Below are positions 1-17,765 of a stretch of DNA of 32,571 nt, piece by piece. The DNA comes from a virus: positions 1-32,571 of the IMG/VR virus record IMGVR_UViG_3300010389_000071. The stretch is one strand, 5' to 3'. Every line of letters starts with the position of its first letter. Position 1 is the stretch's first letter. A model generated the notes under the pieces. The model did no database searches. It was not told the DNA's origin and saw only the letters and a program-made list of their open reading frames with translations. The translations under genes and the position numbers were made by a program.

Positions 1-2
1 TA

Positions 3-533: not shown

Positions 534-1247
534 ATGGGTGCTTTAATTTGTAACCTCCCCTCGATAGAAGTATGGGTAAGAAAAGAATATCTAACTGATC
601 ATCAATCTGGTCATGGTGAATATGTAAAAGGCGTTTGGGTATCGTGTAAGTCGATACCTGGGCGCACTTTTTATTTTGAGACCTATTTGCCCGAATATGC
701 GGCAATGTATGACAAACTACCTATCAGTGCGTTTGTGTCTGCTCCAGAGGCACCTAGACCCGATATGGACCTTCCTAACCTACAGTTCTGGAACTGTATG
801 GACTATGGTGTTGTAGCAGTTACTAAGCAATTTATTGGTAGTATGGACTATGAACTGTACACACGGGACTTTGGTATTCAGAAAGGTACTTATATCTGCA
901 CTATAGACAATTACCATCAAGATCCTGAGGTGGTTGACTATGCTACAAGTGAAAATCCTGCAGAACATAAGTCACATAACTTGATTGAACTTGAAAATGG
1001 ACAGTATGCACTGTATCCTAACAATAGAATGCGTATCTATGATAATAGTTTGACACCTATTGAACCAAAAATGCCTGACTTTAAGGTTTCAACTCAATAT
1101 TATCAGGTTGAAAATGGTTTTGAACGTCTTGGAATGGGTCGTGAAGACGAATATTTTTGGAAAACATCAAAAGAACGTAAAATTGAGGAAGAAAAAATAG
1201 AAGACATGTACAAATCACAAGAGGATCGTCCTCTTGACACTCAATAA
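534..1247 (+). CDS. Conserved-type phage protein of unknown function, 237 residues
   Basis: The protein is 237 residues and soluble-looking, with no signal peptide or membrane segment. The N-terminal half (residues 1-100) is rich in aromatic residues and reads like a globular beta protein (EVWVRKEYLTDHQSGHGEYV, then GVWVSCKSIPGRTFYFETYL). Residues 60-90 are Pro-rich. The last 35 residues are a charged Glu/Lys helix (KTSKERKIEEEKIEDMYKSQ). I recall similar proteins next to gene 25 in T4-like cyanophages, where they are annotated only as conserved hypothetical. Its position directly before the baseplate genes makes a structural or assembly role plausible but unproven. Its stop codon overlaps a late-promoter-like box (1243-1250) that should drive the next gene. 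Confidence 0.7.
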   Translation: MGALICNLPSIEVWVRKEYLTDHQSGHGEYVKGVWVSCKSIPGRTFYFETYLPEYAAMYDKLPISAFVSAPEAPRPDMDLPNLQFWNCMDYGVVAVTKQFIGSMDYELYTRDFGIQKGTYICTIDNYHQDPEVVDYATSENPAEHKSHNLIELENGQYALYPNNRMRIYDNSLTPIEPKMPDFKVSTQYYQVENGFERLGMGREDEYFWKTSKERKIEEEKIEDMYKSQEDRPLDTQ

Positions 1248-1508: not shown

Positions 1509-1910
1509 GTGCCTTTAGAGCGCGTTAGTCAAGGTTTTAAAGATGTAAGTATGACTTTTCAGAAACATCCTCTGACAAGTGATATACTCGCGCTAAAAAA
1601 TGAGTCTGCAATTGCTCGTTCAGTGAGAAACATTGTTTTTACTGTTCCTGGAGAGAAATTTTTTAATGAAGACTTTGGATCTAGGATCAGTCAATCACTT
1701 TTTGAGAATATAAATGATATTTCTGCCAATATTATAAAAAATGAAATAAAAAGTTCACTCAAACTTTATGAACCAAGAGTAAATGTGAAGGAAGTTGAGG
1801 TAGATCCTAACTTTGATCAGAATGAATTTAATGTAACCATCATTTATGAGATTATTGGAGCAGATGTTCCCCCACAAGAATTACAATTTGTCCTGGAATC
1901 AACAAGGTAA
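1509..1910 (+). CDS. 25: Baseplate wedge subunit gp25 (lysozyme-like fold family)
   Basis: The product is 133 residues, close to T4 gp25 (132). Family features seen are GEKFFNEDFGSRI (residues 47-59), matching the gp25/GpW pattern of a Gly-Glu turn followed by FxxDFGS, and the conserved EPR motif in LKLYEPRVNVKEVEV (residues about 86-100). gp25 is part of the core of the baseplate wedge, joins gp6 and gp53, and contacts the sheath, so it is needed for sheath assembly and contraction. Translation appears to start at GTG; no ATG start is available at this position and the N-terminus MPLERVSQGFKD looks intact. A late promoter box ends 21 bases upstream. gp6 follows after three bases, so the two genes are co-transcribed and probably translationally coupled. 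Confidence 0.95.
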   Translation: MPLERVSQGFKDVSMTFQKHPLTSDILALKNESAIARSVRNIVFTVPGEKFFNEDFGSRISQSLFENINDISANIIKNEIKSSLKLYEPRVNVKEVEVDPNFDQNEFNVTIIYEIIGADVPPQELQFVLESTR

Positions 1911-1913: not shown

Positions 1914-3989
1914 ATGCCACTAGCTAATTTTACTAATCTGGACTTTAACCAGGTTAAAACAACACTCAGAGAATATTTAAAGGAAAACTCCAATTTCACT
2001 GACTATGATTTTGAGGGTTCTAACCTTTCAACAATACTTGATGTTTTGGCATATAATACCTACATTACTTCATACAACGCAAACATGGTTGCGAATGAAG
2101 TATTCATTGATAGTGCGACATTAAGAGAAAATGTCGTTTCTTTAGCAAGAAATATTGGATATTTACCCAAATCAAGAAAAGCAGCAACTGGAGTAATTAC
2201 TTTTTTTGTTGATACTAGTAATGTTACTCCAGCTCCATCAACTCTTACTCTTAAAAAAGGACCTGTAGCAACTTCATCAGGTGGATTTGGTAATTCTTCC
2301 TTTGTATTTTCAATTTTAAATGATATTACTGTTCCTGTAAATGATGGAATTGCTGAATTTAACAATATCTCAATTTATGAGGGCAATCTACTGACCTCCA
2401 ACTTCACTTATACTGCAAGAAATCCAAATAATAAGTTTATTTTAGACAATATCGGTATTGACACTGAATTATTGACTGTAACCGTCAAACCAAACCAGTC
2501 ATCATCTAGAAGTGTAAAATATAGTCGTCAAGACAGTTTGTTTGAAGTAAAACCAGACTCAACTGTTTACTATCTGCAAGAAGCAGATGATGAAAGATAC
2601 GAAGTAATATTTGGTGATGGTCTTTTTGGTAAAAAACTCGAAGACAACAACTATGTTAGTGTAGATTACATTACATCAAATGGTGATGCTGCAAATGGAG
2701 TTGGTCAATTTACTTTTGCTGGAAGATTAGTTTATTCTAGAAATAATCGAGAATATGTTGTTACAACTGGCATCTCACTTATAACAACTGGATTAACTGC
2801 TAGAGGTGGAGAGGCAATTGAAGGAGTAGAATCTATTAAAAAGTTTGCACCAAGAATTTATGCTTCTCAAAACAGAGCATTGACTGCAAATGACTATGAA
2901 TCCTTAATTCCAACACAAATTTACCCAGAAACTGAGTCTATTTCTGTTTTTGGTGGAGAAGAACTAGTTCCTCCACAATATGGAAAAGTTTTTATTAGTA
3001 TCAAACCAAGATTTGGTGACTTTATCCCTAATCTTATCAAAGAAAACATTAAAAAGAAACTTAAGAAGTATTCTGTAGCAGGAATTGTTCCAGAACTGCT
3101 TGATCTGAAATATTTGTATGTTGAAGTAAATAGCAAAATCTACTACAACACAAACTTAGCACCATCAGCAACTCTTGTTTCTAGTGTTGTTCAAAATAAT
3201 GTCAATAAGTATGCAGAATCAAGTGAGTTGAATAAGTATGGTGCCAGATTAAAATATAGTAAACTTCTCAAGTTAATTGATGATAGTCATGACTCTGTGA
3301 CCTCAAATATCACCACAGTTTCTATCCGAAGAGATCTGAGACTGACTCTTAACACATTTGTTGAATATCAAATCGGATTTGGAAATCAATTCCATATTAA
3401 ATCTATGAATGGTTATAATATAAAGTCAAGTGGATTTACAGTTGCAGGAATACAGGATGTTGTGTATGTTTCTGATATTCCAGATACCAATAGAAGAACT
3501 GGAACTCTCTTCTTCTTTACTTTACCAACTGCAGGATCGCAATCACCAAATATTGTAAGAAGGGATGTTGGGTTTATTAATTATGACAGTGGAGTTATAA
3601 CAATAAATCCAGTCAATATGACGGGTGCAAAAACAAAAGATGGTCAACCAATTTTAGAACTTTCGGCAACACCACATTCAAATGATGTTATTGGATTACA
3701 GGATCTTTATTTGCAACTAGATACTAGTAGCAGTTTATTTGAACCTGTTGTTGATGATGTCACCTCTGGATTAGATCCTTCTGCTTCTACATACATCGTT
3801 TCTTCCAGTTATGCAAATGGTAATTTAGTCCGTTCTGGTGGACCAGACACGGCAGTAGTAACAAGAGCAACTGGATCTAGAGTTACCACTCAAACATCAG
3901 GAGTTACAGGAGGCACAAGGATTTCTACAAGTGGATCATCATCAGGTTCATCGGGATCAACTGGTTCATCCGGTGGATCTGGATACTAA
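1914..3989 (+). CDS. 6: Baseplate wedge subunit gp6 (baseplate J-like)
   Basis: The product is 691 residues (T4 gp6 has 660). The N-terminus NFTNLDFNQVKTTLREYL, then FEGSNLSTILDVLAYNTYI, is the gp6 signature. The core has the J-like pattern YEVIFGDGLFGKKLEDNNYV (residues about 230-250) and the segment ALTANDYESLIPTQIYPE (about 322-340), both typical of baseplate J and gp6 families. gp6 dimerises to join neighbouring wedges into the baseplate ring and works with gp25 and gp53. The last 55 or so residues are a low-complexity Ser/Gly/Thr tail ending SGSTGSSGGSGY, which T4 gp6 does not have. It lies in one operon with gp25 (3-base gap) and is followed by gp7 after 37 bases. Confidence 0.93.
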   Translation: MPLANFTNLDFNQVKTTLREYLKENSNFTDYDFEGSNLSTILDVLAYNTYITSYNANMVANEVFIDSATLRENVVSLARNIGYLPKSRKAATGVITFFVDTSNVTPAPSTLTLKKGPVATSSGGFGNSSFVFSILNDITVPVNDGIAEFNNISIYEGNLLTSNFTYTARNPNNKFILDNIGIDTELLTVTVKPNQSSSRSVKYSRQDSLFEVKPDSTVYYLQEADDERYEVIFGDGLFGKKLEDNNYVSVDYITSNGDAANGVGQFTFAGRLVYSRNNREYVVTTGISLITTGLTARGGEAIEGVESIKKFAPRIYASQNRALTANDYESLIPTQIYPETESISVFGGEELVPPQYGKVFISIKPRFGDFIPNLIKENIKKKLKKYSVAGIVPELLDLKYLYVEVNSKIYYNTNLAPSATLVSSVVQNNVNKYAESSELNKYGARLKYSKLLKLIDDSHDSVTSNITTVSIRRDLRLTLNTFVEYQIGFGNQFHIKSMNGYNIKSSGFTVAGIQDVVYVSDIPDTNRRTGTLFFFTLPTAGSQSPNIVRRDVGFINYDSGVITINPVNMTGAKTKDGQPILELSATPHSNDVIGLQDLYLQLDTSSSLFEPVVDDVTSGLDPSASTYIVSSSYANGNLVRSGGPDTAVVTRATGSRVTTQTSGVTGGTRISTSGSSSGSSGSTGSSGGSGY
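3910..3989 (+). repeat. Low-complexity Ser/Gly tail at the end of gp6
   Basis: Repeated GGATC/TCATC-type triplets encode a Gly/Ser-rich end (GSSSGSSGSTGSSGGSGY). It looks like a flexible tail rather than a folded domain. Confidence 0.6.
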
Positions 3990-4026: not shown

Positions 4027-7000
4027 ATGTCAGAAACTAGAGTTCAGTTTAACACTATCGTATCCAATCAACTCCCTGCTTATGTTAGGGAGGATTATCC
4101 ATTAATTTCTGAACTTTTAAAACAGTATTATCTTGGACAAGAATACCAAGGTGGTCCAGTTGATCTGATTCAAAATATTGATAGTTATATTAAATTAGAT
4201 AATACCACAAATTTATCTGAATCTGTTGTTCTTTCTGGTGACTTAGATTTTGATGCAACGACAATCAATGTGGATCCAGGAGCATCTCCAACTGGCACAA
4301 ATGGGTTTCCTGAGTCTTATGGTCTGTTAAAGATTGATGATGAAGTAATAACTTACACTGGAAAAACTAATTTTTCCTTTACTGGTTGTGTTAGAGGTTT
4401 TGTTGGAATAACTTCTTATAGAAGTGAGTTAAACAAAGAAGAAGTAGTATTCAGTGAGACTGATTCTGATGATCATCTTAATCAATCAATCATAACAAAT
4501 TTAAGTTGCTTATTCTTAAAAGAATTTTTAGTAAAAGCAAAACATCAATTCTTACCTGGTTTAGAAGAAAGAAATTTAGATACTGAACTGAATCAAAATT
4601 TGTTTGTAAAACAAGCAAAAGATTTTTATAGAAGTAAAGGAACTGATTATTCGTTTGAAATTTTATTCAGAGCATTATACAATGAAGATGTAAGGATTGT
4701 AAAACCAAGAGATTTTCTGATTTCTCCTTCAAACGCTCAATATAGAATCGTCAATAGTTTAGTAGTAGAACCTATTGAAGGTGATCCAGAGAATTTAGAG
4801 AACGCAACTTTATATCAAAATCAATATAAATTTGGTGGTGGAATAAACAAAGCGTATGCACCAATTACCAGTGTTGAAAAGATAGAAGTTGGTTACGGAA
4901 AAACTTTTTACAAACTTAGTATTGATGGTGGATATAATCGTGATATCTATGTACGGGGGGCAGTATATGGTGCATTTACTGTAGAACCATCCACAAGAAT
5001 AATAGGCAAAGTATCTGCAGGATCATCGGTTATTGATGTTGATTCAACTGTTGGATTTGGATCCACAGGAGAGTTATATTTCCGTTATCCAGATAATAGT
5101 GTAGGAGTTTCTTCATATACTTCTAAGTCACTGACACAATTTTATGGAGTTACTAATATTGATTCTGAAGTTGCAGATGCAACAGTCGTAGGAGTCAATA
5201 CATTTGCATATGGAAGGTCTAAATTAGATCAAGATGAAGTTATTGAGGTAAGAGTTAACTCTGTTCTGAACTCTATTAATGTTCCAGTTAATACTAAAGG
5301 TCTTTTAAAAGGTGGAAAGGTTAATGTAACTAATCTTGGAATTTCTGAGAAAAATATTAAAACTGGTAAGTGGTTTTATAATATCTCACCAACATATAAA
5401 ATTAAAAATCTTGAATTAACAGATTCATCAAATAACACATATAAAGTAACTTTAAATGTACCTAATCAATTTAGATCTGGTGATAGTGCAGAAGTTATCT
5501 TAAATGGTGTTAGAAAAGAAACTAAAATCATATCAGTAACTGGTGAAAAAACTTTTACTATAAGAGGACAAGGTGTTTTAAACACAAGTGCTACATATAC
5601 AATTCAAAGGAGAATTCAAAAAGTTTCCTCTACCACTTATCCATCATCACAGATATATTCTACTGATGTTGATAATGTTTATAAAAACGAATCTGGAGAT
5701 TATTTGATTTCTTCTCCATCAATACCTCATTATGATTCACAACCATTAAATCCTGCATCTAGAGAATTCAAATTCTCTGGAACTTTCCTTGGAGATGAAT
5801 TTGAAATTTCTCCTGGAGTAGAGCATGGTTTCTATACTGGTGATGCAATTTACTATGAAGCACAGACAACAGATAAAACCACTATCATTAATGAAAATGG
5901 AGATACAGTCACTGAAAAAGTTAGAGACACTGCATTATTTGCTGATGGTCTTTATTTTGTAAAAAGAGTAAATGGTTCAACTCTTAAGTTTGCAAGAAGT
6001 AGAGGTGATATTTTTAATTCTAAATTTATTTCCTTAGATAATTCAACTACTGTTGCTAACAGTTCTATAAAACCTTTTGAATTTAATGGAAAGACTTTAG
6101 AACCACAGAAAGTTTTAAGAAAAATATCAGAACCTTTAAATGATGGTACTTTAACAGAAACAGAATCAGGATTGACTGGAATGTTTGTTAATGGTGTTGA
6201 ACTTTTAAATTACAAAGGTAAAGATGTAATAAGATATGGAAAAATTGAGTCAATTGATATTTTATCAGAAGGAACAAATATTGATGTAATAAACCCACCA
6301 AATTTGATTATTTCAGACTCTGTTGGAACCGGTGCAACTGGATATCCTGCTATCAGTGGATCTCTTAGAGAAGTAAGAGTAATAGATTCTGGGTTTGATT
6401 ATCTAAACACACCAACAATCAAAATTGAAGGTGGAAATGGTTCTGGTGCGATTGCCCAAGCTAATATGAAGTTGATTGACCATGAAGTTGAGTTTTTTGC
6501 AGACTTAGTTTCTAATAGAGTTATCACAGGAACTGCATCTACTCAATCAAGAATTGGATTCACAACTTATCATAAGTTTAGAAATGCTGAGCAAGTTTTA
6601 TATCAAACAAAAGATCAAGAAGGTGTAAGTGGAATAGTAACTAATTCTTCTTATTACGTCTCAGTATTGGATAATGTTACTGTTAGACTGCATAAAAATG
6701 AAGCTGATGCAATTTCTGGACTTAACACTGTATTTTTAACTGATTATGGTATTGGAAAACATTCTCTTAAATCAGTAAACAAAAAATCTGTAGTTAATTC
6801 CATCAATGTAGTTAATGGTGGATCTGGTTATGAAAACAAAAAAAGAACATCTCCAATCACAGGGATCAATACGGCATCTAACTTAGTTACGATTGTAAAT
6901 CACGATTACAAGACTGGAGAAAAAGTAAAGTATACTTGCACAGGAACTCCTGTATCTGGTTTATCGGTGGATACGGAGTATTATGTAACTGTTGTTGATA

Positions 7001-10000
7001 AAGATTCTTTCCATCTCTCTCAGATTGGTGTTTCTTCAGACAGAGAATTTTACAGAAGAACAAAACAATATGTAGATATGACCTCTGTAGGTGTGGGAAC
7101 TCATATTTTTAACTATCCAGACATTACTGTAACTTTATCTGGAAATGTTGGAATTTCTTCTATTGGCACAGAAACATTTAAGGGTTCTTTCCAACCAATC
7201 GTAAGAGGAACAGTAACATCTATACATCTTGAAAATGGTGGAGTTGGGTATGGATCATCTGAGATTATTAACTTAGATAGACAACCTACAGTTGAATTAG
7301 AATCTGGATCAGATTGCCAATTAACTCCAATCGTTGTTGGTGGAAAGATAGTAGATGTCATAATTCAAAAATCTGGAAGTAGATATCTTTCTACACCAGA
7401 TTTGGATATAGAAGGTGATGGAGTAGGTGCAGTTTTGGTTCCTGTTTTGGAAAATGGATCGGTAACTGATGTTAAAATTATTGAACCTGGTGCAGGATAT
7501 TCTGATGATTTTGGTACAACTACCATTAGTGTTATACCAGCAGGATCAACTGAAGTATTACCAGTATTTAAAGTAAATGTGCAAAATTGGAGAGTAAATT
7601 TATTTGAAAAATATTATCCATATTTTTCACAGGATGATGGTATTATTATACCTGGATTAAAATCAGATGACTTTGGACTTCAATATTCTCATTTGTATGC
7701 ACCAAGAAAACTTAGAGAAACTGTTTTTTCTACAGATACTGAAGGGAATATATTGTATGGTGAGAGAGATCTCAGAAAGGTCAACAGTATTGAAGTAGCA
7801 TCTACAAAACACTCTCCTATTTTAGGATTTGCTTATGATGGACATCCAATCTATGGACCATATGGATACTCTAATTTGAATGGTGGTGTAATTACACAGA
7901 TGAGATCTGGATACTCTATTGAACTAAAAGACAATAGACCTCCCACATCTATTTTCCCAGAAGGATTCTTTATTAATGATTATACTCATAAAGAAGTTTC
8001 TGATGATAGTGTTCTTGATGAAAATAATGGAAGATTCTGTATAACACCAGAATTTCCAAAAGGAACCTATGCCTATTTTGTTACTATAAATGATAAGTTT
8101 GCAGAATCTTCTGGAATTTTTGAAAAAAATCGTAAACCAATTTTTCCATATGTAATTGGCAATAACTACAAGGGCATTCCCGATAGATTTAATTTTAATC
8201 CATTATCAAATTATGATTCTTTTGATATTTCAAGTGATTGGCGTAGAAACACAGAACCATTAAATGTTATTGAAGATGATTTAGAATATTCTTATTTTTA
8301 TGTCCCAAATAAGTTGAATCAAACTGCAACTATTGAAGCAACTTCTTTTGGTGTAATTGATAGTGTCGGTATTGTTACTGGGGGTTCCAATTATCGCGTT
8401 AATGAAACTCTTGTTTTTAATAATAATGGAACTCAAGGACAGGGTGTAGCAGCAAAAGTAACCAGAGTAAAAGGAAAATCTGTTAATAACATAAGTGTTG
8501 CTTCAAGCATTATTGAAGGGGTTGAGATTTATCCAGGACAAACAAAAGATGAATATTTGGTCTTCTCAGATAATCCTCATAATTTTGAACCTCTTGATAT
8601 TATTACTGTTTCAGGTTTATCTACCACATCTTCAGGAATTGAAGGATTTTATAATGTTGGTATAAGAACAAATAGATTAGCAATTGCTGGAGTGGGAACT
8701 ATAGGAGTTGCTATTGGTAATACTAATATAACTGGTATAGTAACTTACTTTAGAGTTTCTGGTGATCTAAACTATCCAAACATTAGAGAGAATGATACTT
8801 TAATTATAGGAACAGAAAAAGTTAAGGTTCTCAATGTAGATCCTCTGAATTCAAGAATTAGAGTTTTAAGAGCATTTGATAATACTGTTGGAACAACGCA
8901 TACAATAGGAAAATATATTTACGAAGTTCCTAGAAAATTAAGAATTAATTCTGGGTTTAAAACTGATTACTCTTATACTCTCAATAAGCAGATTTATTTT
9001 GATCCTTCAGATGCTGTTGGACTCGGAACAACTGCTGGAGTTGGAATTGGAACAACAATTTCCTTCTCTAATCCTGGTGCTGGTGCAACCTCTATTTTTA
9101 TTCAAACCAAGGCAATCTATCTCCCTGGTCACAATTTAAAAACAGGAGATCAAGTAACATACTCTACTGGAATAGGGACTGTTAAAGGTTCTGGAATAAT
9201 TGTACAAGATGAAACTAATGTTGGGGTAGGAACTACACTTGCTGATGGCACTAATCTATTTGTTGCAAAGATAAATGACGATTTGATTGGTATTGCAACG
9301 GTGAGAGTTGGTCTTGGAACAACTGGAACTTTTGTTGGTCTTACAAACACACTCTCAACCACTCTATTCTTTAGAAGTGTTGGAACAGGAGATACTCATA
9401 GTTTTAAAACAAATTATAGTGTACTAACAGGAGATATAAGAAGAAATTTAGTTACTGTTTCAACAGCAGGAACTCATGGATTGAGTTCTCCACATAATAT
9501 TTTTGTCAATGTTAATCCTCAAAATACGGGAATCGTAACTCTTACTTATAATGATTATAATAGAAGATTGGTTGTAAATCCAGTTGGATTTGTAACTGCA
9601 GGTGTTAACACTACTACAAGTGCCATAACGATTAACTCTCATGGATTTAAAACAGGTGATAAGGTAATTCATACCTCAGAAGTATCATCTGTAGGACTTA
9701 CTAGTGATAGAATTTACTATGTTGTGAGAGTAGATGATAATTTAATTAAATTGTCAAATACTTATCATGAAGCAACACAATCAAAACCAATCATTGTAGG
9801 AATAACCAGTGCATCTCTTGGAACAATTAATCCAATATCACCACTGGTAAAACTTTATAGAAATTCCACTGTAACTTTTGATCTCTCTGATCCTTCTCTT
9901 TCATATGTAAAACAAGGAACAACTTATCCAGCATTTAAGTTTGATTTATATGTTGATAAAAACTTTACTAAAGAATGGGAAAAATATAGTGAAAGTAATA

Positions 10001-13000
10001 CTTTTGATTTATCAAGACAAGGAATAGTAGGAACAGTTGGTGCCAAAGCAGAATTATCCGTTAATGAAAATACTCCATCTGAACTTTATTACAATTTAAC
10101 TCCTTTGTATGAAAGTGATCTTCCTGCAACAAAGTCAGAGATTTATACCGATACTGAAGTTATTTCTGGAAACACAATTGTATCTAGAGAAAGTCTGTAT
10201 AATGGAAAGCACACTATTAATGTTGGAACGACAACAACATTTACATATTCTCTTGCAGAAACTCCAGAAAAACTCTCATATGACACTTCGTCGTTAGTCA
10301 CATATGAGACTGACTGTACCCACACACTTGGACCAATAGCAAAAGTAGAACTATCTGATAGAGGAAAAAATTATTATTCATTACCTGGAATCACTACCGT
10401 AAACACTCTTGGTGGCAATGGTGCTGTTTTAGAGGCGAAAAGTTCATCCATAGGTTCTCTTAAGAGAATGACCTTAGATAATATTGGATTTACTTTACCA
10501 TCAGATCCAACATTAAATCCAAGAATACTTCTTCCTCAAAGTATCAAAATGGATTCTCTGGCATCACTTGATAGTGTTGGAATTACTTCATTTGGAAGAG
10601 GATTCTCAGTTCCACCTGAATTAGTTGTGCTGGATGGAAAAACTAGTGAAGTAGTCTCTGATATTAATTTGAAAGTAACTCTTGGAAAATCTGAAGTAGA
10701 AATTCTGAAAAATACTGATGGGATGAGTAATGTTGGACCAACAATCATACCAACACAAAGTGGTGCTGGAGTTGGTATCAACACTATAGTGTTTGATTCA
10801 GCAACAGAAACAGTAACAGCAACTTTATCTGTTGGATTTAGTACTGTTAATATTTTCCCATTTGCAGTTGGAGATAAAGTTCTTGTAGAGGGTATTAGTG
10901 TTGGTGTAGGATCTACTGGAAAAGGATATAACTCTTCTGGATATAATTACAAGTTATTTGATGTCACTGGAATCACTGAAAACCTTGGTGGTATTGGAAG
11001 TGTTACATATAGCATGTCTGGATTGTTTGAAGGTGGTGAGTTCCCAGGAACTTTTAATTCTGTTAATTCCTCTGGAAAGATTCTTGCTTCTAAACATTTC
11101 CCAACATTTGAAGTTGTTTTAAACACTAGGAATTTTATTAGTGGAGAAACAGTTACGTCAGATTCTGCTACAGGAATTGTTCAGAGTTGGGATCCAAAAA
11201 TTACTACACTAACAGTTTCTTCTGATGATAATTTTGTTGTTGGTGAGGTTGTTAAAGGACTTAATTCTAAAGTTCAAGGTATTGCATCTTCTATTACTTC
11301 TTTTGATTCTTATATCAACTTAGGAGCAACTTCAAAAATTATACAAGGTTGGCAGGAAGATTTTGGTAGATTAAATTTTGAATTACAAAAACTACAAGAT
11401 AATTACTATTATCAAAACTTCTCTTATTCATTAAGATCTAAAGTTCCATATGATACTTGGACTGATGTTGTCTCTGCTCAGAATCATACATTAGGATACA
11501 AAAAGTTCTCTGATTATCAATTAGAGTCAAATAATGAAAATAGTATGACTGTTGGACTCTCAACGGCAGTAACAAATGTAACTGCTGTTAATAATATTGA
11601 TGGATTTGCAAGTCTAAATTGTGTCTATGGATTTGATATTGTTAAGGAAAATAACCTCAATCAAAATTCAAAAGTTGTTTCTGATGAAATAATTTTCTCC
11701 AATAGAATTCTTACTGATTATTTTGAATCTGTTGGAAATAGAGTTCTTTCTATTGATGATCTTAGTGGTCAATTTAATAGTAATCCAAGATCAACCTCAT
11801 TTAGTGTAGTAGATACTTTCCCTCTGAGTGATGTTAGATTCCAAAAATATATCACATATGTTAGAGACAAGAGATACAACGCACAAAGACAGTTGATGAT
11901 TGTTGATCTTCTTCACGATAATTCTCGTGGATATTTGAATCAATATGGTAGAGTTGAAACTTATTATGATCAAGGGTCTTTTGATTTTGCTATTTCTGGA
12001 TCTGAAGCACAACTTCAATTCTATCCAACTAAATCTACGGTTAATGATTATGATCTTAGTGTTTTCTCATATAATTTAAATGATAATTTCCTTGGAATAG
12101 GAACTACAAGTATCGGTGGAGTAGTAACTATTGAAACTAAGAGTTCTCCGGTAACATCTGGTGTTACTACTACTATTGTTTCAATTGGAGACACTCACTC
12201 TAGTGTTAAAGTTCTGGTCAATATAAATCCAGATTTGACTAGAAATGAAGAATTTGAAGCAGTAGAACTTAATATTGTTCATAACGGAGCAGATATTGAG
12301 ATGATGGAATATGGTAGATTGACTACCAATCTTGGTGGATATTCTGCAACTGGACTTGGTACATATCATGCATATTTTAGTGGATCTTCCTTAAATGTTG
12401 ACTTTATTCCAACTTCCGTTGGTATTGCAACTACAGGTGTAATTAACACTATTCAAGTAGGACTTTCTTCAAATACCTTCACTGGTATTGGGACCGTTGA
12501 TCTTACAAGATCAAGACTTGAGGCTAGAACAACTAACATTTCTGCTTCAGGATCTCCTGGTATTACCACTGTTGCTGAGTATCCAAATGATTATGATTGT
12601 GCTTACTTTATTGCTCAAGTTGCAGATACTACTAATTCTGAAACTCAACTATCTGAACTTATCGTTATTGATGATTATGTTTCTTCAACTGGTGCTTATG
12701 AAACATATGATACTGAATATGGAGTAGTAGAAACTGGTGCTGGATTGGGAACATTTGGATCTAGAGTTTCTGCAGCAGGAACCGTTTCCCTTGTATTCAC
12801 CCCAAATGCAAGTATTGACACAGTTGTCAATGTGTACATGAATGCATTGACTTTAAATGAAAATACATCACTGTCTAATGAAATTGACTTTACTAATGCA
12901 ACAATTAACAGTGATTTAGGTTCTTATCAAGGAACAGAGTCAGACATCAAGAGAGGATTTGAACTACAGCATGAAAATCTTCCAATCTTTGAAAGATATT

Positions 13001-16000
13001 TTGAAGCAAATGATGCTGGTATTGCTAACACAACCAATAATACTATTACAGTTCCAAATCACTTCTTTGTTAGTGGTGAAAAACTGAGATATGTTCATGT
13101 TGGAACTGCATCCTCTGCTATTGGAATCGGCACAACTAGTTTTGTTGGTGCTGCAAACACAACTTTCCTTCCAGGAGAAAATCTTTTTGCAGTTAAGGTT
13201 GATGATAACACTATCAAAATTGCATCCAGTGCAGAAAATGCTCTGAAGTCTATTCCCGAGGTAGTTGAACTTGAAAGTGTTGGTATTGGTACATCGCACA
13301 GATTTATATCAACTAATCAAAATGCTAAGGTTATTGTTGCTCTTGATAATATTATTCAATCTCCAATAGTTTCTACTGCAATTACTACGACACTTGCTAA
13401 TCAAATGTTATCAGTAGATAACTTGTTAGAGTTTAGTGGAATAACATCCTTCTTCGGTTCTGATCTTATTAAGATTGGTGATGAGGTTATGAAAATTGAA
13501 GGTGTAGGTATTGGTAGTACAAACTTTGTTAGAGTTCGTAGAGAGTGGTTGGGAACTAGAATTGGAACCGCGGCAACTGGTGATTTAGTTACCAAAATTG
13601 TAGGAAATTACAATATTGTAGATAATGTGCTCAATTTTGCAGAGGCACCATTTGGAAATACTCCAATTGGATCAACTACAAATCCACCTGATGAAAGAGA
13701 CTGGACAGGTATTACTACCTCTTCAAGTTTCCAAGGTAGATCGTTTATGAGATCGGGTGTTGTTGATACATCAAATGAGACTTATTATAAGAACTATATC
13801 TTTGATAATATTTCAGATCAATTTAATGCTACTGAAAATGAGTTCACTCTCAAGCAAGATGGATCTGATATATCTGGCATTTCTACAGAGAACGCAATCA
13901 TTCTTGTTAATGATGTATTCCAGTCACCAGGAATTTCCGATCAATATGTTTTAAGTGAGCAGTCGGGTATTACATCTATTACATTCCAAGGAACCAATAC
14001 AGTTCCATTAGGTCCTGATGTTGGAATTTCTAGTTATCCAAAAGGTGGTATTATTGTCTCTGTAGCATCAACTGAAGGATTTGGATACCAACCATTAGTT
14101 TCTGCTGGAGGAACTGCGATCGTATCTGGTCTTGGAACGATTCAATCCATTAGCATTGGGAACAGTGGATCTGGATATAGATCTGGAATTCAAACGGTTG
14201 TAAATGTTGGTGTTGGACTTTCTGCTTCAGGAACTCCAAGTATTGAGTTCATTGGAACTGCTGCTATCAGTAATGGTAATATTGTTAGTGTAGCAATTAC
14301 TAATCCAGGAACAGGATATACAACAACTAATGTTCCATATGTTGTATTTGATGATCCACTAAGTTATTCTAATATGGATTTGGTGTATAGTTCTTCTTCT
14401 GTAAGTGGATTTGGAACACATGCAACAGCAAACATCGTTGTTGGTCAAGGATCTAGTGTGATTGATTTTGAAATCAATAATACTGGTTATGGATATGGTA
14501 ATGGTGAAATACTAACCGTTGCAATTGGAGGGACAACTGGTATTCCAACAACTTCATCTTATTCTGGAAATGAGTTTCAAATTACAATTGATGAAATTCA
14601 TGATGATGAGTTTACTGGATGGTCAGTGGGAACATTGCAGGTTTTAGATAGAATTGATGAATATATTGATGGAGTGAGAAAAGACTTCCCACTAACATTA
14701 TCTGGATCTATTGTTTCTATTGTTGCAGCAAAAGGTTCTAAGATCAATGTTGAAGATGTTCTTCTCATATTTGTAAACAACATACTCCAGGTTCCTGGTG
14801 AAGGTTATACATTTGATGGAGGAAGCACAGTTGTATTTACTGAGGCTCTGAAGGTAGGTGATACTGTAAACATTCTATTCTATAAAGGAAGTGGTGACAC
14901 TGATGTTATCTTTAGAAATGTGATTGAAACAGTGAAAAAAGGTGATACTTTACAAATTAAGAGTGACAGATCAATTGGACAAGCATCATACTTAACCGAA
15001 GATGAAAGAGTAGTAGAATTGGTCAATTCTACTAGCACGGTAGATACAAATCCTTATGAGGGACCAGGAAACACTGTTGATGTTACTCTTGAAAGACCTG
15101 TTGATTGGTGTCGTCAAACAGAAGATATCTTTATCAATCAAATCGGTGTTGGTAAGGATAGAGAATTGTACGAACCTGTTATTAATCCAAGTGCATATCT
15201 CATCAAGTCTGTTGGAGTGGGATCAACAGCAATCTATGTTGATAATTTAAGACCTATCTTTAACTCTCAAAATGAGAATGATACAGATTTAGATTTCCAA
15301 AAGAAAATTAAGTTTGTAAGACAAGAAACTAAGACAGGTGCAGCTGGTACTGCAGTTGTTTCTGGATTTGGCACTATCTCTTCTGTCACTATTTCTGATG
15401 GTGGTGTTGGATATACAACTGCTACTGTAAGCTTTGGTTCAACTGTTGGTGTTGGAACAACTACCAGAGCATTTGGTAATGTTTCTATTAGTGCTGGAGG
15501 AACAGTTACAGGAGTTGCTATTACAAGTCCAGGTGTGGGATACACTTATACAAATCCACCAACGGTTCTTATTTCTCCTCCAACTTATTCAGAAGAAGAA
15601 GTAAGTGTAACTTCTTATTCTGGTGATAATGGAATCATTGTTGGATTTGGAACAACTGCTGTTGGGGTTGGAACTACTCAACTTATATTTGATATTCATA
15701 TTCCATATGATTCTTTCCTTAGAGATTCCTCTATTGCTGGAACAGCATTAACTATAAGTTCTATTAGTGCTAATGACTACTTTATTATTAGAAACTCTAA
15801 TGTTGGACTTGGATCAACTTCAGTAACTTCACTTGATAGTGTTGGAAATACTGTTGGAGTAGGAACTTCATTTGCAGATAATGTTTATCAAGTTGCTAGT
15901 GCAGAATCTATCTCAACTAGTGTTTCTGGAATATCTACATATGTAAGAAGATTGTTTGTTAAAGTTGATGACTTTGTTTATGGATTCTCAGGAATAACAA

Positions 16001-16179
16001 CTTCTGATAACTTTGGATCTTTCAGTTGGGGAAGAATAGATGTTACCGCAAGAGCAGAGTTGAATTCTTACAATGCATATACCTTAGGTGGTATTGGAAT
16101 CTCTGAAGGAACTGGAATTTCTACATCAACATTAGTGACAAGATCAAACTTCTTGAAATTTAAAAATTATATCGTTTAA
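4027..16179 (+). CDS. 7: Giant baseplate wedge protein, gp7 homologue, 4050 residues, with YHYH domain and many beta-module repeats
   Basis: This single uninterrupted frame encodes 4050 residues; T4 gp7 has about 1032. Residues 1-260 match the C-terminal wedge part of T4 gp7: an early helix LPAYVREDYPLISELLKQYY and later KDFYRSKGTDYSFEILFRAL with YNEDVRI (residues about 198-225), against FYSTKGIEASYKFLFKVLYN in T4. Between those two blocks an IGDE...RG module is inserted (residues about 73-144). The rest is a beta-rich tract: GxGY repeats (residues about 740-815, 1061-1180, 1440-1490, 3360-3500, 3773-3852), six TGD...YYV...VDD repeats (between 590 and 3100), further IGDE modules (about 1581-1640, 3119-3199) and a YHYH domain (about 1258-1385) with GFAYDGHPIYGPYGY. 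gp7 nucleates the wedge and holds gp8, gp10 and gp53. The tract may extend as an outer baseplate arm or fibre. Several Gly-rich V/I-G-x-G-T-T strings recur throughout. Confidence 0.85.
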   Translation: MSETRVQFNTIVSNQLPAYVREDYPLISELLKQYYLGQEYQGGPVDLIQNIDSYIKLDNTTNLSESVVLSGDLDFDATTINVDPGASPTGTNGFPESYGLLKIDDEVITYTGKTNFSFTGCVRGFVGITSYRSELNKEEVVFSETDSDDHLNQSIITNLSCLFLKEFLVKAKHQFLPGLEERNLDTELNQNLFVKQAKDFYRSKGTDYSFEILFRALYNEDVRIVKPRDFLISPSNAQYRIVNSLVVEPIEGDPENLENATLYQNQYKFGGGINKAYAPITSVEKIEVGYGKTFYKLSIDGGYNRDIYVRGAVYGAFTVEPSTRIIGKVSAGSSVIDVDSTVGFGSTGELYFRYPDNSVGVSSYTSKSLTQFYGVTNIDSEVADATVVGVNTFAYGRSKLDQDEVIEVRVNSVLNSINVPVNTKGLLKGGKVNVTNLGISEKNIKTGKWFYNISPTYKIKNLELTDSSNNTYKVTLNVPNQFRSGDSAEVILNGVRKETKIISVTGEKTFTIRGQGVLNTSATYTIQRRIQKVSSTTYPSSQIYSTDVDNVYKNESGDYLISSPSIPHYDSQPLNPASREFKFSGTFLGDEFEISPGVEHGFYTGDAIYYEAQTTDKTTIINENGDTVTEKVRDTALFADGLYFVKRVNGSTLKFARSRGDIFNSKFISLDNSTTVANSSIKPFEFNGKTLEPQKVLRKISEPLNDGTLTETESGLTGMFVNGVELLNYKGKDVIRYGKIESIDILSEGTNIDVINPPNLIISDSVGTGATGYPAISGSLREVRVIDSGFDYLNTPTIKIEGGNGSGAIAQANMKLIDHEVEFFADLVSNRVITGTASTQSRIGFTTYHKFRNAEQVLYQTKDQEGVSGIVTNSSYYVSVLDNVTVRLHKNEADAISGLNTVFLTDYGIGKHSLKSVNKKSVVNSINVVNGGSGYENKKRTSPITGINTASNLVTIVNHDYKTGEKVKYTCTGTPVSGLSVDTEYYVTVVDKDSFHLSQIGVSSDREFYRRTKQYVDMTSVGVGTHIFNYPDITVTLSGNVGISSIGTETFKGSFQPIVRGTVTSIHLENGGVGYGSSEIINLDRQPTVELESGSDCQLTPIVVGGKIVDVIIQKSGSRYLSTPDLDIEGDGVGAVLVPVLENGSVTDVKIIEPGAGYSDDFGTTTISVIPAGSTEVLPVFKVNVQNWRVNLFEKYYPYFSQDDGIIIPGLKSDDFGLQYSHLYAPRKLRETVFSTDTEGNILYGERDLRKVNSIEVASTKHSPILGFAYDGHPIYGPYGYSNLNGGVITQMRSGYSIELKDNRPPTSIFPEGFFINDYTHKEVSDDSVLDENNGRFCITPEFPKGTYAYFVTINDKFAESSGIFEKNRKPIFPYVIGNNYKGIPDRFNFNPLSNYDSFDISSDWRRNTEPLNVIEDDLEYSYFYVPNKLNQTATIEATSFGVIDSVGIVTGGSNYRVNETLVFNNNGTQGQGVAAKVTRVKGKSVNNISVASSIIEGVEIYPGQTKDEYLVFSDNPHNFEPLDIITVSGLSTTSSGIEGFYNVGIRTNRLAIAGVGTIGVAIGNTNITGIVTYFRVSGDLNYPNIRENDTLIIGTEKVKVLNVDPLNSRIRVLRAFDNTVGTTHTIGKYIYEVPRKLRINSGFKTDYSYTLNKQIYFDPSDAVGLGTTAGVGIGTTISFSNPGAGATSIFIQTKAIYLPGHNLKTGDQVTYSTGIGTVKGSGIIVQDETNVGVGTTLADGTNLFVAKINDDLIGIATVRVGLGTTGTFVGLTNTLSTTLFFRSVGTGDTHSFKTNYSVLTGDIRRNLVTVSTAGTHGLSSPHNIFVNVNPQNTGIVTLTYNDYNRRLVVNPVGFVTAGVNTTTSAITINSHGFKTGDKVIHTSEVSSVGLTSDRIYYVVRVDDNLIKLSNTYHEATQSKPIIVGITSASLGTINPISPLVKLYRNSTVTFDLSDPSLSYVKQGTTYPAFKFDLYVDKNFTKEWEKYSESNTFDLSRQGIVGTVGAKAELSVNENTPSELYYNLTPLYESDLPATKSEIYTDTEVISGNTIVSRESLYNGKHTINVGTTTTFTYSLAETPEKLSYDTSSLVTYETDCTHTLGPIAKVELSDRGKNYYSLPGITTVNTLGGNGAVLEAKSSSIGSLKRMTLDNIGFTLPSDPTLNPRILLPQSIKMDSLASLDSVGITSFGRGFSVPPELVVLDGKTSEVVSDINLKVTLGKSEVEILKNTDGMSNVGPTIIPTQSGAGVGINTIVFDSATETVTATLSVGFSTVNIFPFAVGDKVLVEGISVGVGSTGKGYNSSGYNYKLFDVTGITENLGGIGSVTYSMSGLFEGGEFPGTFNSVNSSGKILASKHFPTFEVVLNTRNFISGETVTSDSATGIVQSWDPKITTLTVSSDDNFVVGEVVKGLNSKVQGIASSITSFDSYINLGATSKIIQGWQEDFGRLNFELQKLQDNYYYQNFSYSLRSKVPYDTWTDVVSAQNHTLGYKKFSDYQLESNNENSMTVGLSTAVTNVTAVNNIDGFASLNCVYGFDIVKENNLNQNSKVVSDEIIFSNRILTDYFESVGNRVLSIDDLSGQFNSNPRSTSFSVVDTFPLSDVRFQKYITYVRDKRYNAQRQLMIVDLLHDNSRGYLNQYGRVETYYDQGSFDFAISGSEAQLQFYPTKSTVNDYDLSVFSYNLNDNFLGIGTTSIGGVVTIETKSSPVTSGVTTTIVSIGDTHSSVKVLVNINPDLTRNEEFEAVELNIVHNGADIEMMEYGRLTTNLGGYSATGLGTYHAYFSGSSLNVDFIPTSVGIATTGVINTIQVGLSSNTFTGIGTVDLTRSRLEARTTNISASGSPGITTVAEYPNDYDCAYFIAQVADTTNSETQLSELIVIDDYVSSTGAYETYDTEYGVVETGAGLGTFGSRVSAAGTVSLVFTPNASIDTVVNVYMNALTLNENTSLSNEIDFTNATINSDLGSYQGTESDIKRGFELQHENLPIFERYFEANDAGIANTTNNTITVPNHFFVSGEKLRYVHVGTASSAIGIGTTSFVGAANTTFLPGENLFAVKVDDNTIKIASSAENALKSIPEVVELESVGIGTSHRFISTNQNAKVIVALDNIIQSPIVSTAITTTLANQMLSVDNLLEFSGITSFFGSDLIKIGDEVMKIEGVGIGSTNFVRVRREWLGTRIGTAATGDLVTKIVGNYNIVDNVLNFAEAPFGNTPIGSTTNPPDERDWTGITTSSSFQGRSFMRSGVVDTSNETYYKNYIFDNISDQFNATENEFTLKQDGSDISGISTENAIILVNDVFQSPGISDQYVLSEQSGITSITFQGTNTVPLGPDVGISSYPKGGIIVSVASTEGFGYQPLVSAGGTAIVSGLGTIQSISIGNSGSGYRSGIQTVVNVGVGLSASGTPSIEFIGTAAISNGNIVSVAITNPGTGYTTTNVPYVVFDDPLSYSNMDLVYSSSSVSGFGTHATANIVVGQGSSVIDFEINNTGYGYGNGEILTVAIGGTTGIPTTSSYSGNEFQITIDEIHDDEFTGWSVGTLQVLDRIDEYIDGVRKDFPLTLSGSIVSIVAAKGSKINVEDVLLIFVNNILQVPGEGYTFDGGSTVVFTEALKVGDTVNILFYKGSGDTDVIFRNVIETVKKGDTLQIKSDRSIGQASYLTEDERVVELVNSTSTVDTNPYEGPGNTVDVTLERPVDWCRQTEDIFINQIGVGKDRELYEPVINPSAYLIKSVGVGSTAIYVDNLRPIFNSQNENDTDLDFQKKIKFVRQETKTGAAGTAVVSGFGTISSVTISDGGVGYTTATVSFGSTVGVGTTTRAFGNVSISAGGTVTGVAITSPGVGYTYTNPPTVLISPPTYSEEEVSVTSYSGDNGIIVGFGTTAVGVGTTQLIFDIHIPYDSFLRDSSIAGTALTISSISANDYFIIRNSNVGLGSTSVTSLDSVGNTVGVGTSFADNVYQVASAESISTSVSGISTYVRRLFVKVDDFVYGFSGITTSDNFGSFSWGRIDVTARAELNSYNAYTLGGIGISEGTGISTSTLVTRSNFLKFKNYIV
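4243..4458 (+). repeat. IGDE...RG module, copy 1 (inside the gp7-like N-terminal domain)
   Basis: Residues about 73-144 of the giant protein read LDFDATTINVDPG, then LLKIDDEVITYTG, then GCVRGFVG. The same pattern recurs at 8767-8945 and 13381-13620 in this gene, at 24109-24350 in the DUF4815 gene and at 29196-29463 in gp15. It interrupts what is a continuous region in T4 gp7. Confidence 0.55.
5800..13315 (+). repeat. Six dispersed copies of a TGD...YYV...VDD protein repeat in gp7
   Basis: Copies lie near 5800-6035, 6510-6790, 6880-7130, 9105-9430, 9612-9840 and 13036-13315. Each has a turn such as HDYKTGEKVKY, HGFKTGDKVIH, HNLKTGDQVTY or HFFVSGEKLRY. Most then have a YYV or LFAVK strand and a VDD.xIKL or VDKDSFHL strand, and several end near a GxGTH.F string. 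Divergence is high at DNA level, so the repeats are old. The pattern resembles repeats I know from large phage tail proteins and bacterial adhesins. Confidence 0.6.
6244..15582 (+). repeat. Dispersed GxGY beta repeats in gp7
   Basis: Copies lie near 6244-6470, 6790-6860, 7207-7560, 8350-8500, 10330-10540, 14110-14532 and 15346-15582. Clear examples are VVNGGSGYENK, LENGGVGYGSS, IEPGAGYSDD, IGNSGSGYRSG, ITNPGTGYTTT, ISDGGVGYTTA and ITSPGVGYTYT. Many are preceded by a G-x-[IV]-x-x-[IV]-x-[IV] strand and followed by a Pro-x-[IV] strand. The same unit occurs in gp8, the DUF4815 protein and gp14. Confidence 0.65.
7800..8184 (+). other. Segment encoding a YHYH-type domain within gp7
   Basis: Residues about 1258-1385 contain ILGFAYDGHPIYGPYGY, LDENNGRFCITPEFPKGTYA and FPYVIGNNYKG, which match the YHYH family (PF14240 as I recall it). 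The position corresponding to the name-giving YHYH string reads TYAYF here, so both His residues are missing. The domain occurs in bacterial secreted proteins and in cyanophage structural proteins; its function is not established. Confidence 0.72.
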
Positions 16180-16211: not shown

Positions 16212-17765
16212 ATGGCTGCTATTATAACTGATCAGATTAGAATATTAAATGCTGGTAATTTTATTGCTGGAGTCTCTAATTCCAACAATTCTTATTATTC
16301 GTTCATTGGTCTGACTAATCCTGCAGATTATCAAACTGATTGGGATTCCGATCCACCTGCTCCCAAGGACAATTTTGATCAGGAGAATGATTACTGGAAT
16401 ACGATGGTGGCGTTGAAGAAAATCAACACTGCTGATGCTAGACAAGTCATTCCAAAAAGAACTTGGGCATCTGGAACGACTTATGACATGTATAGGCATG
16501 ATTATTCTAGATCAAACACAGCAAAAGTTTCTGGAGCAACTAATCTTTATTCATCAAACTATGTTGTATTAAATAGTGATTTCAGAGTTTATATTTGTTT
16601 ACAGAATGGCACTGATCCAGATAATACTGAAGGCAGACCATCTTTGGATGAACCAACTTTCACCGATTTAGAACCAAGATCTGCTGGAACCAGTGGTGAT
16701 GGATATATTTGGAAATACCTTTACACAATTAAACCAAGTGAAGTCGTTAGATTTGAATCAACAGACTTCATGCCAGTTCCGACAGATTGGTTAACCGGAA
16801 CAGAAAATGCTGCGGTCAGAGATAATGCTGTTGACGGTGGAATCAAAATTGTAACTGTTACTAACAAGGGTGTCGGTCTTGGAACTGCTAACAGTGTTTA
16901 TACTTCCGTTCCCATCAGAGGTGATGGAACTGGAGCAGAATGTACAATTGTTGTTGATGCAAATCAACAAGTAAGTTCTGTAACTGTTTCTAATCAAGGA
17001 TCTGGATACACATATGGAAATGTAGATTTAGTTGCCGGTGGAGTTCCAACAGGAACTACAAGACCAACTTTTGATGTTATTATTCCACCTCAAGGTGGTC
17101 ATGGTGCAAACATTTATAGAGAGTTGGGTGCATATAATGTTCTTCTTTACTCTAGAATTGAAAATGATAGCACAAATCCAGACTTTATAACAGGAAATCA
17201 AATTGCAAGAGTTGGTGTTGTTGAAAATCCTCAACAGTTTGGATCAACAACTCTTCTTTCTGCAGATAAAGCAAGTGCTCTCAGTGCTTTAAAGTTAGTT
17301 GGAACTGGATACAGTACTGCAACTTTCTCTGGAGACTCTTACTTCACTCAAACAGTATCAACTGGCACCACAGCAGTTGGAAGAGTTGTAAGTTATGATC
17401 AAAATACTGGTGTTCTGAAGTTCTGGCAAGATAGGTCACTTGCAGGATTTAATACTGTAGGAACAGCACAAACTCAACCTACATATGGATTTGACCTTAC
17501 TGAGTTTTCTTCTTCTCCAGGAACTGGTGGGTCTTTAGTTATATCTCCAACAACTGGTCAAGATCTATCAATTGATACTGCTTTTTCAGGTATAACTACC
17601 GTAATAAATAATCGTACATATTATCTTGGTCAAACTTTTGCTAGCGGTATTGCCAATCCTGAAGTTAAAGCACACTCTGGCAGTATCATTTACGTTGATA
17701 ATAGACCGTCTATAACACGGTCATCGAATCAAAAAGAAGACATAAAAGTTATTTTGCAGTTCTAA
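16212..17765 (+). CDS. 8: Baseplate wedge subunit gp8
   Basis: The product is 517 residues; T4 gp8 has 334. Matches to T4 gp8 are seen at RQVIPKRTWASGTTY (residues about 77-91; T4 has DAVIPRRDWGDTRY), GDGYIWKYLYTIKPSE (about 162-177; T4 GDGYVWEYLFEIPP) and the C-terminus HSGSIIYVDNRPSITRSSNQ followed by KEDIKVILQF (T4 HSGEMIYMENRPPI...EINILFTF). gp8 forms a homodimer in the wedge and connects gp7 and gp10. The extra length comes from an insertion with two GxGY-type units (residues about 209-277: VTNKGVGLG and VSNQGSGYTYG) and a second insertion near 375-460. The gene has its own late promoter box and is followed after six bases by the DUF4815 gene. Confidence 0.9.
   Translation: MAAIITDQIRILNAGNFIAGVSNSNNSYYSFIGLTNPADYQTDWDSDPPAPKDNFDQENDYWNTMVALKKINTADARQVIPKRTWASGTTYDMYRHDYSRSNTAKVSGATNLYSSNYVVLNSDFRVYICLQNGTDPDNTEGRPSLDEPTFTDLEPRSAGTSGDGYIWKYLYTIKPSEVVRFESTDFMPVPTDWLTGTENAAVRDNAVDGGIKIVTVTNKGVGLGTANSVYTSVPIRGDGTGAECTIVVDANQQVSSVTVSNQGSGYTYGNVDLVAGGVPTGTTRPTFDVIIPPQGGHGANIYRELGAYNVLLYSRIENDSTNPDFITGNQIARVGVVENPQQFGSTTLLSADKASALSALKLVGTGYSTATFSGDSYFTQTVSTGTTAVGRVVSYDQNTGVLKFWQDRSLAGFNTVGTAQTQPTYGFDLTEFSSSPGTGGSLVISPTTGQDLSIDTAFSGITTVINNRTYYLGQTFASGIANPEVKAHSGSIIYVDNRPSITRSSNQKEDIKVILQF
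16837..17043 (+). repeat. GxGY repeat pair inserted in gp8
   Basis: Residues about 209-277 of gp8 read IKIVTVTNKGVGLG and VSSVTVSNQGSGYTYGNV, the same unit seen in gp7, gp14 and the DUF4815 protein. T4 gp8 lacks it. Confidence 0.6.

Follow-up and report, generated by a model that had tools for sequence, protein, structure and literature searches.

The familiar version of the baseplate wedge protein gp7 is that of phage T4 (1,032 aa; PDB 5IV5 and 5HX2; PHROG 964), which PMC3004832 describes as a monomer present in six copies per tail. In T4 gp7 and in the gp7 of KP1 (9F4A) a core (T4 646-760) is followed by a second and weak stretch (T4 862-890), called block B below. A tiny protein of the same kind is gp17 of Vibrio phage XM1 (242 aa), called a T4 gp7 ortholog in PMC10457771. 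According to that source it has an N-terminal helix-turn-helix in the core bundle and holds separate spike proteins, which it binds through a loop (80-106) inside the core domain and through its C-terminus; we liken it to the protein studied here by description. Small gp7 proteins are further found in Stenotrophomonas phage Moby (503 aa), Xanthomonas phage X1 (498 aa), a Variovorax phage (486 aa) and Desulfovibrio phage 7757 (586 aa). Very large ones, which belong to PHROG 2885, are gp7 of Synechococcus phage S-SM2 (4,156 aa) and gp111 of Synechococcus phage Bellamy (4,067 aa).

Host attachment by the baseplates of marine T4-like phages is poorly understood. The genes wac, g10, g11, g12, g34, g35 and g37 are reported in PMC2984593 to be missing from cyanomyoviruses, and a statement in PMC7029224 has T4 gp7 itself absent from pelagi- and cyanomyophages and apparently replaced by VrlC. 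Gp7 is already named for cyanophages in a comparison table of PMC5349666 and in some cyanophage records, and the name 'wedge initiator' is used in PMC9146016. The kind of gene described here is therefore already known, its orthologue S-SM2 gp7 being annotated as 'baseplate wedge initiator' in GenBank. What is new is the split architecture of gp7, of which we found no description in the open-licence PMC literature, and the conflict with the paper calling gp7 absent. A split gp7 would provide an anchor point for modelling the baseplate, placed within one of the largest structural proteins of these phages. It may also explain why such proteins are annotated variously as 'gp7', 'putative fiber', 'hypothetical' or 'head closure'.

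Gene order and the giant reading frame

The window, by which we mean the whole stretch of 32,571 bases that was analysed, comes from an IMG/VR virus record and covers only this fragment of the genome. Its genes are arranged as gp25, gp6, an ORF of 4,050 aa, gp8, a VrlC/DUF4815 protein of 2,517 aa, small genes, gp13, gp14, gp15 and gp16 (Table 1), which is the order seen in S-SM2 and Bellamy. The ORF is uninterrupted and sits between gp25-gp6 and gp8, as gp7 does in T4, where the order gp6-gp7-gp8 is the same. It has a full-length match to PHROG 2885, 'baseplate wedge subunit' (E 0, 3,877 bits, best stretch residues 1-3394). Identity is 54% to S-SM2 gp7 over 4,016 aligned residues and 57% to Bellamy gp111 over 4,014, and because both alignments run from end to end with few gaps the ORF looks intact. 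These two proteins occupy the same slot, fall in the same length class and have a similar layout (core at 4-62 and 164-248, YHYH at about 1256-1380, block B at 2451-2526). They differ from the window protein by sequence divergence only, and their displayed annotation makes no mention of a split wedge domain. As one part of our best explanation as a whole, the ORF is probably the gp7 of a cyanomyovirus of the Kyanoviridae type. A part of gp8 was also searched against plasmids and gave no match.

Table 1. Positions of the described features in the window and the evidence for each
Feature	Residues	Position	Strand	Evidence
gp25		1509..1910	+	PF04965 E 2e-14
gp6		1914..3989	+	PF21379 E 2e-16; PHROG
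Probable giant gp7 (baseplate wedge initiator), 4,050 aa, 437 kDa	1-4050	4027..16179	+	PHROG 2885 match; orthologue of S-SM2 gp7 and Bellamy gp111
Wedge core part 1, helical, roughly T4 gp7 646-700	3-62	4033..4212	+	Profile of smaller gp7s only, E 7e-9; alignment
Insertion 1 inside the core, ~102 aa, beta module	63-164	4213..4518	+	Profile split; predicted strands; structure match
Wedge core part 2, motif inside, roughly T4 gp7 700-760	165-248	4519..4770	+	Profile of smaller gp7s only, E 2e-18; other profiles
Motif KDFYRSKGTDYSFEILFRAL	198-217	4618..4677	+	Comparison with T4 gp7 motif
Insertion 2, between core and block B, 2,204 aa	249-2452	4771..11382	+	Boundaries of profiles of smaller gp7s only
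YHYH domain, inside insertion 2	1257-1358	7795..8100	+	PF14240 E 6e-22, 79 bits
Block B, YYYQNFSY...NHTLGY, proposed counterpart of T4 ~862-890	2453-2510	11383..11556	+	Profile of smaller gp7s only, E 4e-15; other profiles
C-terminal extension, 1,540 aa, repeated modules	2511-4050	11557..16176	+	Profile boundaries; repeat search
gp8		16212..17765	+	PF09215 E 1e-18; PHROG
VrlC-like DUF4815 protein, 2,517 aa		17772..25325	+	Profile matches; gene order of relatives

Homology of the N-terminal core to T4 gp7

In T4 the gp7 motif begins at residue 734 of 1,032, which is 71% along the chain. The sequence-only reading had placed its equivalent near the N-terminus of the 4,050-residue protein, and our comparisons agree with this. 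Pairwise BLASTP of the ORF against T4 gp7 gives 45% identity over 33 residues (E 2.7e-5, T4 726-758), covering the motif KDFYRSKGTDYSFEILFRAL. The similarity stands well clear of chance: the T4 gp7 family profile phrog_964 has a single match in the window, at the motif site (E 6e-8; 1 of 14 control genomes also matched). It finds one place each in S-SM2, Bellamy, P-SSM2, syn9 and P-RSM4, and has no match in S-RIM32 or HTVC008M. A profile of N-terminal sequences reaches T4 gp7 726-758 with an i-E of 1.6e-8 in a set of 12 proteins. The further expectation that residues ~1-260 would match T4 gp7 by profile is likewise borne out by a 45-row N-terminal profile, which ranks T4 gp7 first (E 6e-4) and KP1 gp7 second (E 1.8e-3) among 177,635 distinct PDB sequences. 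A profile derived solely from other, smaller gp7-like ORFs detects both parts of the window core (Table 1) as well as T4 646-760 (4e-13); in reversed-sequence controls of these profiles the core gave one match at 0.076 and block B none below 0.1. The Pfam family PF23786 (Baseplate_wedge) aligns to window residues 187-229 with 18.4 bits (E 0.0016), under its curated cut-off of 27 bits, and does not detect T4 gp7.

The helical wedge core can be aligned to T4 gp7 ~643-760, which suggests that the window protein belongs to the gp7 family in the broad sense. Overall identity between cyanophage gp7 and T4 gp7 is very low, and phrog_964 aligns to the window only at profile positions 725-757. With the sensitivity of this profile, the ~640 N-terminal residues of T4 gp7 (fn3 and following) have no equivalent in the ORF, which therefore falls outside the T4-type gp7 subfamily (PHROG 964). 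A phmmer search of the PDB with the whole protein returned only Kemp-eliminase matches (E 0.08 and worse), which were rejected as chance.

An AlphaFold model of window residues 1-300 (pLDDT 62.7, pTM 0.46) has block means of mostly 37-56 in the helical core and is too poor there to prove the fold. Foldseek ranked KP1 gp7 second for this model (E 0.0067), and the VIA rows lie mostly over the beta insert at 62-163, with many ATP-synthase barrels as background. This model and the small gp7 model discussed below are both mediocre, with an rmsd to T4 gp7 of 16-21 A.

Position of the core among gp7 proteins

The gene lies downstream of gp6 in every annotated record examined, the neighbours in P-SSM2 being unnamed. 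Proteins in the slot after gp6 have 498 aa in X1, 503 aa in Moby, 1,016 aa in HTVC008M, 3,048 aa in S-PM2 and 3,411 aa in S-RIM32, and the P-SSM2 counterpart in the gp7 slot has 5,195 aa. The 6,076-aa gene of syn9 also follows gp6 and is separated from gp8 by a connector-like and a putative fibre gene; the locus of P-RSM4, with a gp7 of 6,603 aa, begins in the same way. The core is N-terminal in all of these gp7 proteins, that of the window included. Among the close loci (best 80 of 274 relatives) the motif is found at 199-201 in 80 of 80, one of them a 239-aa ORF that we read as a contig break. A regular expression placed it at 116-195 in 77 of 80 S-RIM32-like loci, at 202 in 13 of 33 HTVC008M-like loci and at 381-742 (median 735) in 22 of 23 T4-like loci; it missed the other 3, 20 and 1 loci, and the positions given are those of the remainder. 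The value of 381 fits a truncated 678-aa ORF (locus L212). For a further 80 gp7-like ORFs (best 80 of 565 relatives), fetched by core patterns and including Moby itself twice, the core starts within the first 40 residues in 79. Since the presence of the core was the selection criterion for this set, only its place is informative.

As far as the compared sequences go, an N-terminal core is the state of every gp7 outside the T4 type, bar one odd ORF, and the same N-terminal hairpin is described for XM1 gp17 in PMC10457771. The view that the wedge domain was moved to the N-terminus in this protein is therefore not upheld, as nothing need have moved. Among the gp7 proteins compared, the T4 type alone has ~640 residues ahead of the core. 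The simplest reading, behind which stands no rooted tree, would be that T4-type gp7 gained these residues. It looks as if the familiar T4 version is the odd one out.

A second conserved block

The sequence-only reading took the rest of T4 gp7 to be gone or replaced. This is correct for the first ~640 residues of T4 gp7, which have no counterpart at the sensitivity of the profiles used, but a second block is kept about 2,200 residues downstream of the core. The 586-aa protein of Desulfovibrio phage 7757, which matches T4 648-897 weakly (E 7e-3), contains a second conserved stretch, YYYQDFSY...HPAGF, with an equivalent at residue 2460 of the window protein; the consensus of block B is YYYQxFSY...HPxGF. 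A profile of 36 block B stretches also matches gp7 proteins outside the model (Bellamy, P-SSM2, P-RSM4, 7757, Moby, X1 and Variovorax), and in a small protein set it reaches T4 862-892 at 0.0013 and F86 at 0.0069. A profile of 55 stretches, taken from the 80 further gp7-like ORFs only, finds the window block (E 4e-15) and reaches 1.5e-13 or better in 13 of 15 complete named gp7 proteins (Moby itself being in the profile), among them all the complete gp7 proteins of cyanophages and pelagiphages that were examined; F86 gives 8e-4 and T4 only 0.57. In a PDB search with block B by itself, T4 gp7 comes first (E 0.048) and KP1 gp7 second (E 0.098). By these three T4 values, the block B of T4 itself is weak by sequence. 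The presence of a second block after the core, in the same order, again suggests that the window protein is a member of the broad gp7 family.

The regular expression for the block B motif matched in 35 close loci, with positions of 2450-2466, and 51 of 53 complete ORFs from viral contigs carry the block, the other two being without it. With an E limit of 0.01, public phages contain 449 block B places, spread over 448 records, and the N-terminal 300 residues gave 451 places in 443 records (E limit 0.001), the two lists being counted separately and not intersected. We considered whether block B might be a module shared widely among tail proteins and rejected this, as none of 22 other window, T4 and HTVC008M proteins scored below 0.72 with the 36-stretch profile and every phage record but one has a single place. 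S-RIM32 has a second, non-significant block B-like stretch (E 0.09). A 1,906-aa ORF running off its locus (L096) has the core and YHYH, and is without block B in the part present (block B profile 0.47).

Do the core and block B form one domain?

In the PF23786 model the core (~153-230) and block B (~231-281) directly adjoin, and in syn9 the same model positions map to 686-730 and about 3,460-3,501, about 2,730 residues apart. The model detects block B in S-RIM32, syn9, P-RSM4, HTVC008M and 7757; it did not detect block B in the pieces of the window, S-SM2 and Moby. The spacer between the two is constant in length among close relatives and ranges from 79 to 2,688 aa across groups: 79 aa in 7757, 101 in T4, 219-233 in the other small gp7 proteins, 489 in HTVC008M, 1,558-1,561 in S-RIM32 and S-PM2, 2,204 in the window and 2,688 in syn9. 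The small gp7 proteins thus resemble the window protein in having an N-terminal core, a spacer and block B, downstream of gp6 in the annotated Moby and X1, but their spacer is short, only 39-298 aa follow block B and the core contains no insertion. The T4 protein also has a core free of insertion and a short spacer. I899_gp055 of Pelagibacter phage HTVC008M (1,016 aa) follows gp6 and has a core with a ~105-aa insertion and block B at 739-828; its spacer is shorter than that of the window protein.

When a profile of four small gp7 proteins was compared with the PDB, KP1 gp7 came first (E 1.7e-8) and T4 gp7 next (3.6e-8), with the core on 647-760 and then a weak second stretch at ~863-946, in the same order. 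The spacer of the small gp7 proteins includes a stretch like domain I of the T4 gp18 sheath protein (E 3e-7; Z 7.6, rmsd 2.2 over 68 residues). For an AlphaFold model of the 503-aa Moby-type gp7 (37 sequences, pLDDT 62.1, pTM 0.36), the only three Foldseek matches below 1e-3 are T4, KP1 and T4 gp7 (E 3e-6 to 6e-5). VIA aligns range 1..432 of this model to T4 641..891 (Z 8.9, 203 residues, rmsd 20.9). Several compact single domains of 77-97 residues align over 73-74 residues across model range ~131..382, so that the spacer is skipped and its two flanks seemingly form one domain in the model. Range 53..435 is covered by two further matches, one to a P1 baseplate chain of 190 aa (Z 6.7, rmsd 3.2 over 107) and one to a chain of 179 aa from a Streptomyces injection system (CIS; Z 5.3, rmsd 4.4 over 107). 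VIA reports first and last residues only and the modest Z may reflect a common arrangement, and we take these matches as support, not proof, for the unity of core and block B. The wedge domain of the window protein seems to be made of the two core parts and block B, with three additions.

Insertions, extension and repeats

The first addition splits the core profile at position ~62, between residues 62 and 165 in the window and between 58 and 667 in syn9. It is absent from Moby, X1, Variovorax, 7757 and T4, and its predicted model resembles phage tail and capsid beta domains (Z 8.8-9.2).

The YHYH domain in insertion 2 scores far above the curated cut-off of 25 bits and covers about half of the PF14240 profile (87-186 of 193). 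It was the only Pfam domain above cut-off in ten consecutive pieces of residues 301-4050. All 52 close loci with an ORF of at least 1,500 aa have a YHYH motif, and the 80 further gp7-like ORFs, many of which are truncated, all lack it; no YHYH was found in T4 gp7 or in the HTVC008M protein. The domain lies near the middle of insertion 2 in the window but not in syn9 or S-RIM32. We considered a YHYH domain at the tip of a symmetric hairpin and rejected it, as the relative position differs between groups.

The sequence-only reading described about 3,800 residues of beta modules after the core; what we found there are repeats and the YHYH domain. An hmmsearch for repeats within the 4,050-aa protein gave two families with 38 matches, against 1 in the reversed control. 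The first lies at about 765-810, 1035-1170, 2115, 3375-3465 and 3780-3870, and the second at about 630, 855, 945-990, 1710-1755, 1890-1935 and 3015-3060. The first family resembles stretches in gp14 and gp8 of the same phage, in a comparison made with no composition correction. The similar stretches in gp14 (26979-28427) and gp8 (16212-17765) correspond to gp7 residues 3333-3645 and 3768-4003, and one type of module therefore seems to be common to neck and baseplate proteins. In syn9, the second half of gp7 (L087 10763-19990) contains a concanavalin-like Laminin_G_3 domain (E 1e-23) after block B.

Proposed architecture and alternative readings

Homology, block order, gene position, single copy and conservation of the layout are covered directly by the evidence. 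We think it likely that gp7 here has a split wedge domain in which core and block B are the anchor, with additions at three sites and peripheral arms in contact with the host. We infer that block B packs back on the core in this protein, and the two together should pack with gp6 and gp25 as T4 gp7 and XM1 gp17 do, probably with one gp7 chain per wedge and six per baseplate. The additions would comprise a ~102-aa beta domain in the core, a stretch of ~2,204 aa that separates core from block B, and a further ~1,540 aa beyond block B. The chain would leave the wedge for a very long excursion that includes the YHYH domain, return to be held by block B, and leave again. Excursion and tail might form large peripheral arms, which would reach the host surface or bear other fibres and relay host contact straight to the wedge. 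That such arms would contact the host and pull directly on the wedge is suggested by the comparably placed additions, by the presence of large counterparts in virions and by mutation of S-PM2d081. Two large proteins, which we liken to the window protein by role and without sequence comparison, are reported in virions by mass spectrometry: the 'baseplate wedge initiator' S-SZBM1_208 (724 kDa, 6,619 aa, 71 peptides, 13.5%; PMC9146016) and S-CREM2 ORF122 (91 unique peptides, 27.2%; PMC10665884). S-PM2d081, identified through its position and profile match as S-PM2 gp7, is named in PMC9910659 among giant proteins mutated during a host coexistence experiment. The window protein might act as a tail fibre or adhesin that binds a host receptor.

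A more general idea, to which we give somewhat less than an even chance, sees the conserved gp7 wedge domain as a scaffold that offers three ports for insertions. In cyanophages more than 2,000 residues would have been threaded through the middle port, so that the arm contacting the host would form one covalent unit with the wedge and be clamped at either end. If this is true, there would be no separate fibre joint, and pushing or pulling the arm would move the contraction trigger directly.

The sequence-only reading differs from the split domain in taking the wedge-nucleating part as N-terminal, the rest of gp7 as lost and everything after residue ~260 as one free C-terminal arm. The N-terminal core, the missing counterpart of T4's first ~640 residues and the weak block B of T4 would all fit, and a protein whose block B has ceased to pack on the core would look just so. 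We nevertheless consider a free arm unlikely, since block B adjoins the core in PF23786 and is kept in the same order and in essentially a single copy in the complete cyanophage, pelagiphage and small gp7 proteins compared. Of the large extra arm, what stands is that most of the chain is extra material; we read it instead as an insertion anchored at two ends plus a long tail. Very unlikely, in our opinion, is a polyprotein that is cut after assembly and leaves no single giant arm. The peptide coverage of the two virion proteins mentioned above could be taken in its favour, but block B downstream of insertion 2 would still have to reach the wedge. The remaining objection to the anchor itself is the statement in PMC7029224, by which gp7 would be absent, VrlC would take its place and the giant ORF would be only a fibre. 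It would agree with how little identity cyanophage gp7 and T4 gp7 share overall. We find this scarcely credible, as phrog_964 matches the giant ORF alone, both in the window and in five complete cyanophages (with no match in S-RIM32 and HTVC008M), the VrlC of the window is not among the matches of the 36-stretch block B profile, and the PDB profile rankings and the Foldseek matches of the small gp7 model point to T4 and KP1 gp7. The A2 profile furthermore detects a single gp7 gene both in the window and in each of the 7 complete relatives; its extra matches in syn9 and P-RSM4 are split gp7 parts and weak beta-insert matches in other large proteins. No separate gp7 gene was found in any of these, in line with the sequence-only reading, and the profile results speak against the published absence of gp7.

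A different question is whether the role of insertion 2 and of the C-terminal extension is mainly structural, thickening the baseplate or linking wedges with no binding to the host. This would be compatible with the split wedge domain and disputes its function alone. Identity to S-SM2 and Bellamy is 44-71% per 150-residue segment, except for 36-43% at 451-600; gaps are few, there is no hypervariable tip, and the similar modules in gp14 and gp8 (without composition correction) would also suit a structural role. Against it are the YHYH domain in the insertions of the cyanophages compared, the lectin-like domain of syn9 and the mutation of S-PM2d081 reported in PMC9910659, and on balance we hold a purely structural role to be possible but rather doubtful.

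Further observations

In HTVC008M (L091) the gp7 orthologue (33435-36485) is labelled 'head closure Hc2' in RefSeq, and the label 'baseplate wedge initiator' is given to two other proteins (44145-46025 and 46673 onward), of which one is fibre-like and has a Peptidase_S74 chaperone; these labels look misplaced. S-PM2d081 (L317 7531-16677) is a 'hypothetical protein' of 3,048 aa with the core, YHYH and block B of gp7. The 586-aa gp7 of Desulfovibrio phage 7757 (L234 5971-7728) is unannotated, and with just 79 residues from core to block B it would be a good small structure target.

In the window, a family named ferredoxin in PHROG 3704 is found at 534-1247 and matches a gene named PurM in several cyanophage records. 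For a 690-aa protein after gp16 (30078-32150), the matches of several PHROGs are confined to the final ~83 residues (about 608-690), as would be expected if variable proteins were capped by a conserved C-terminal piece.
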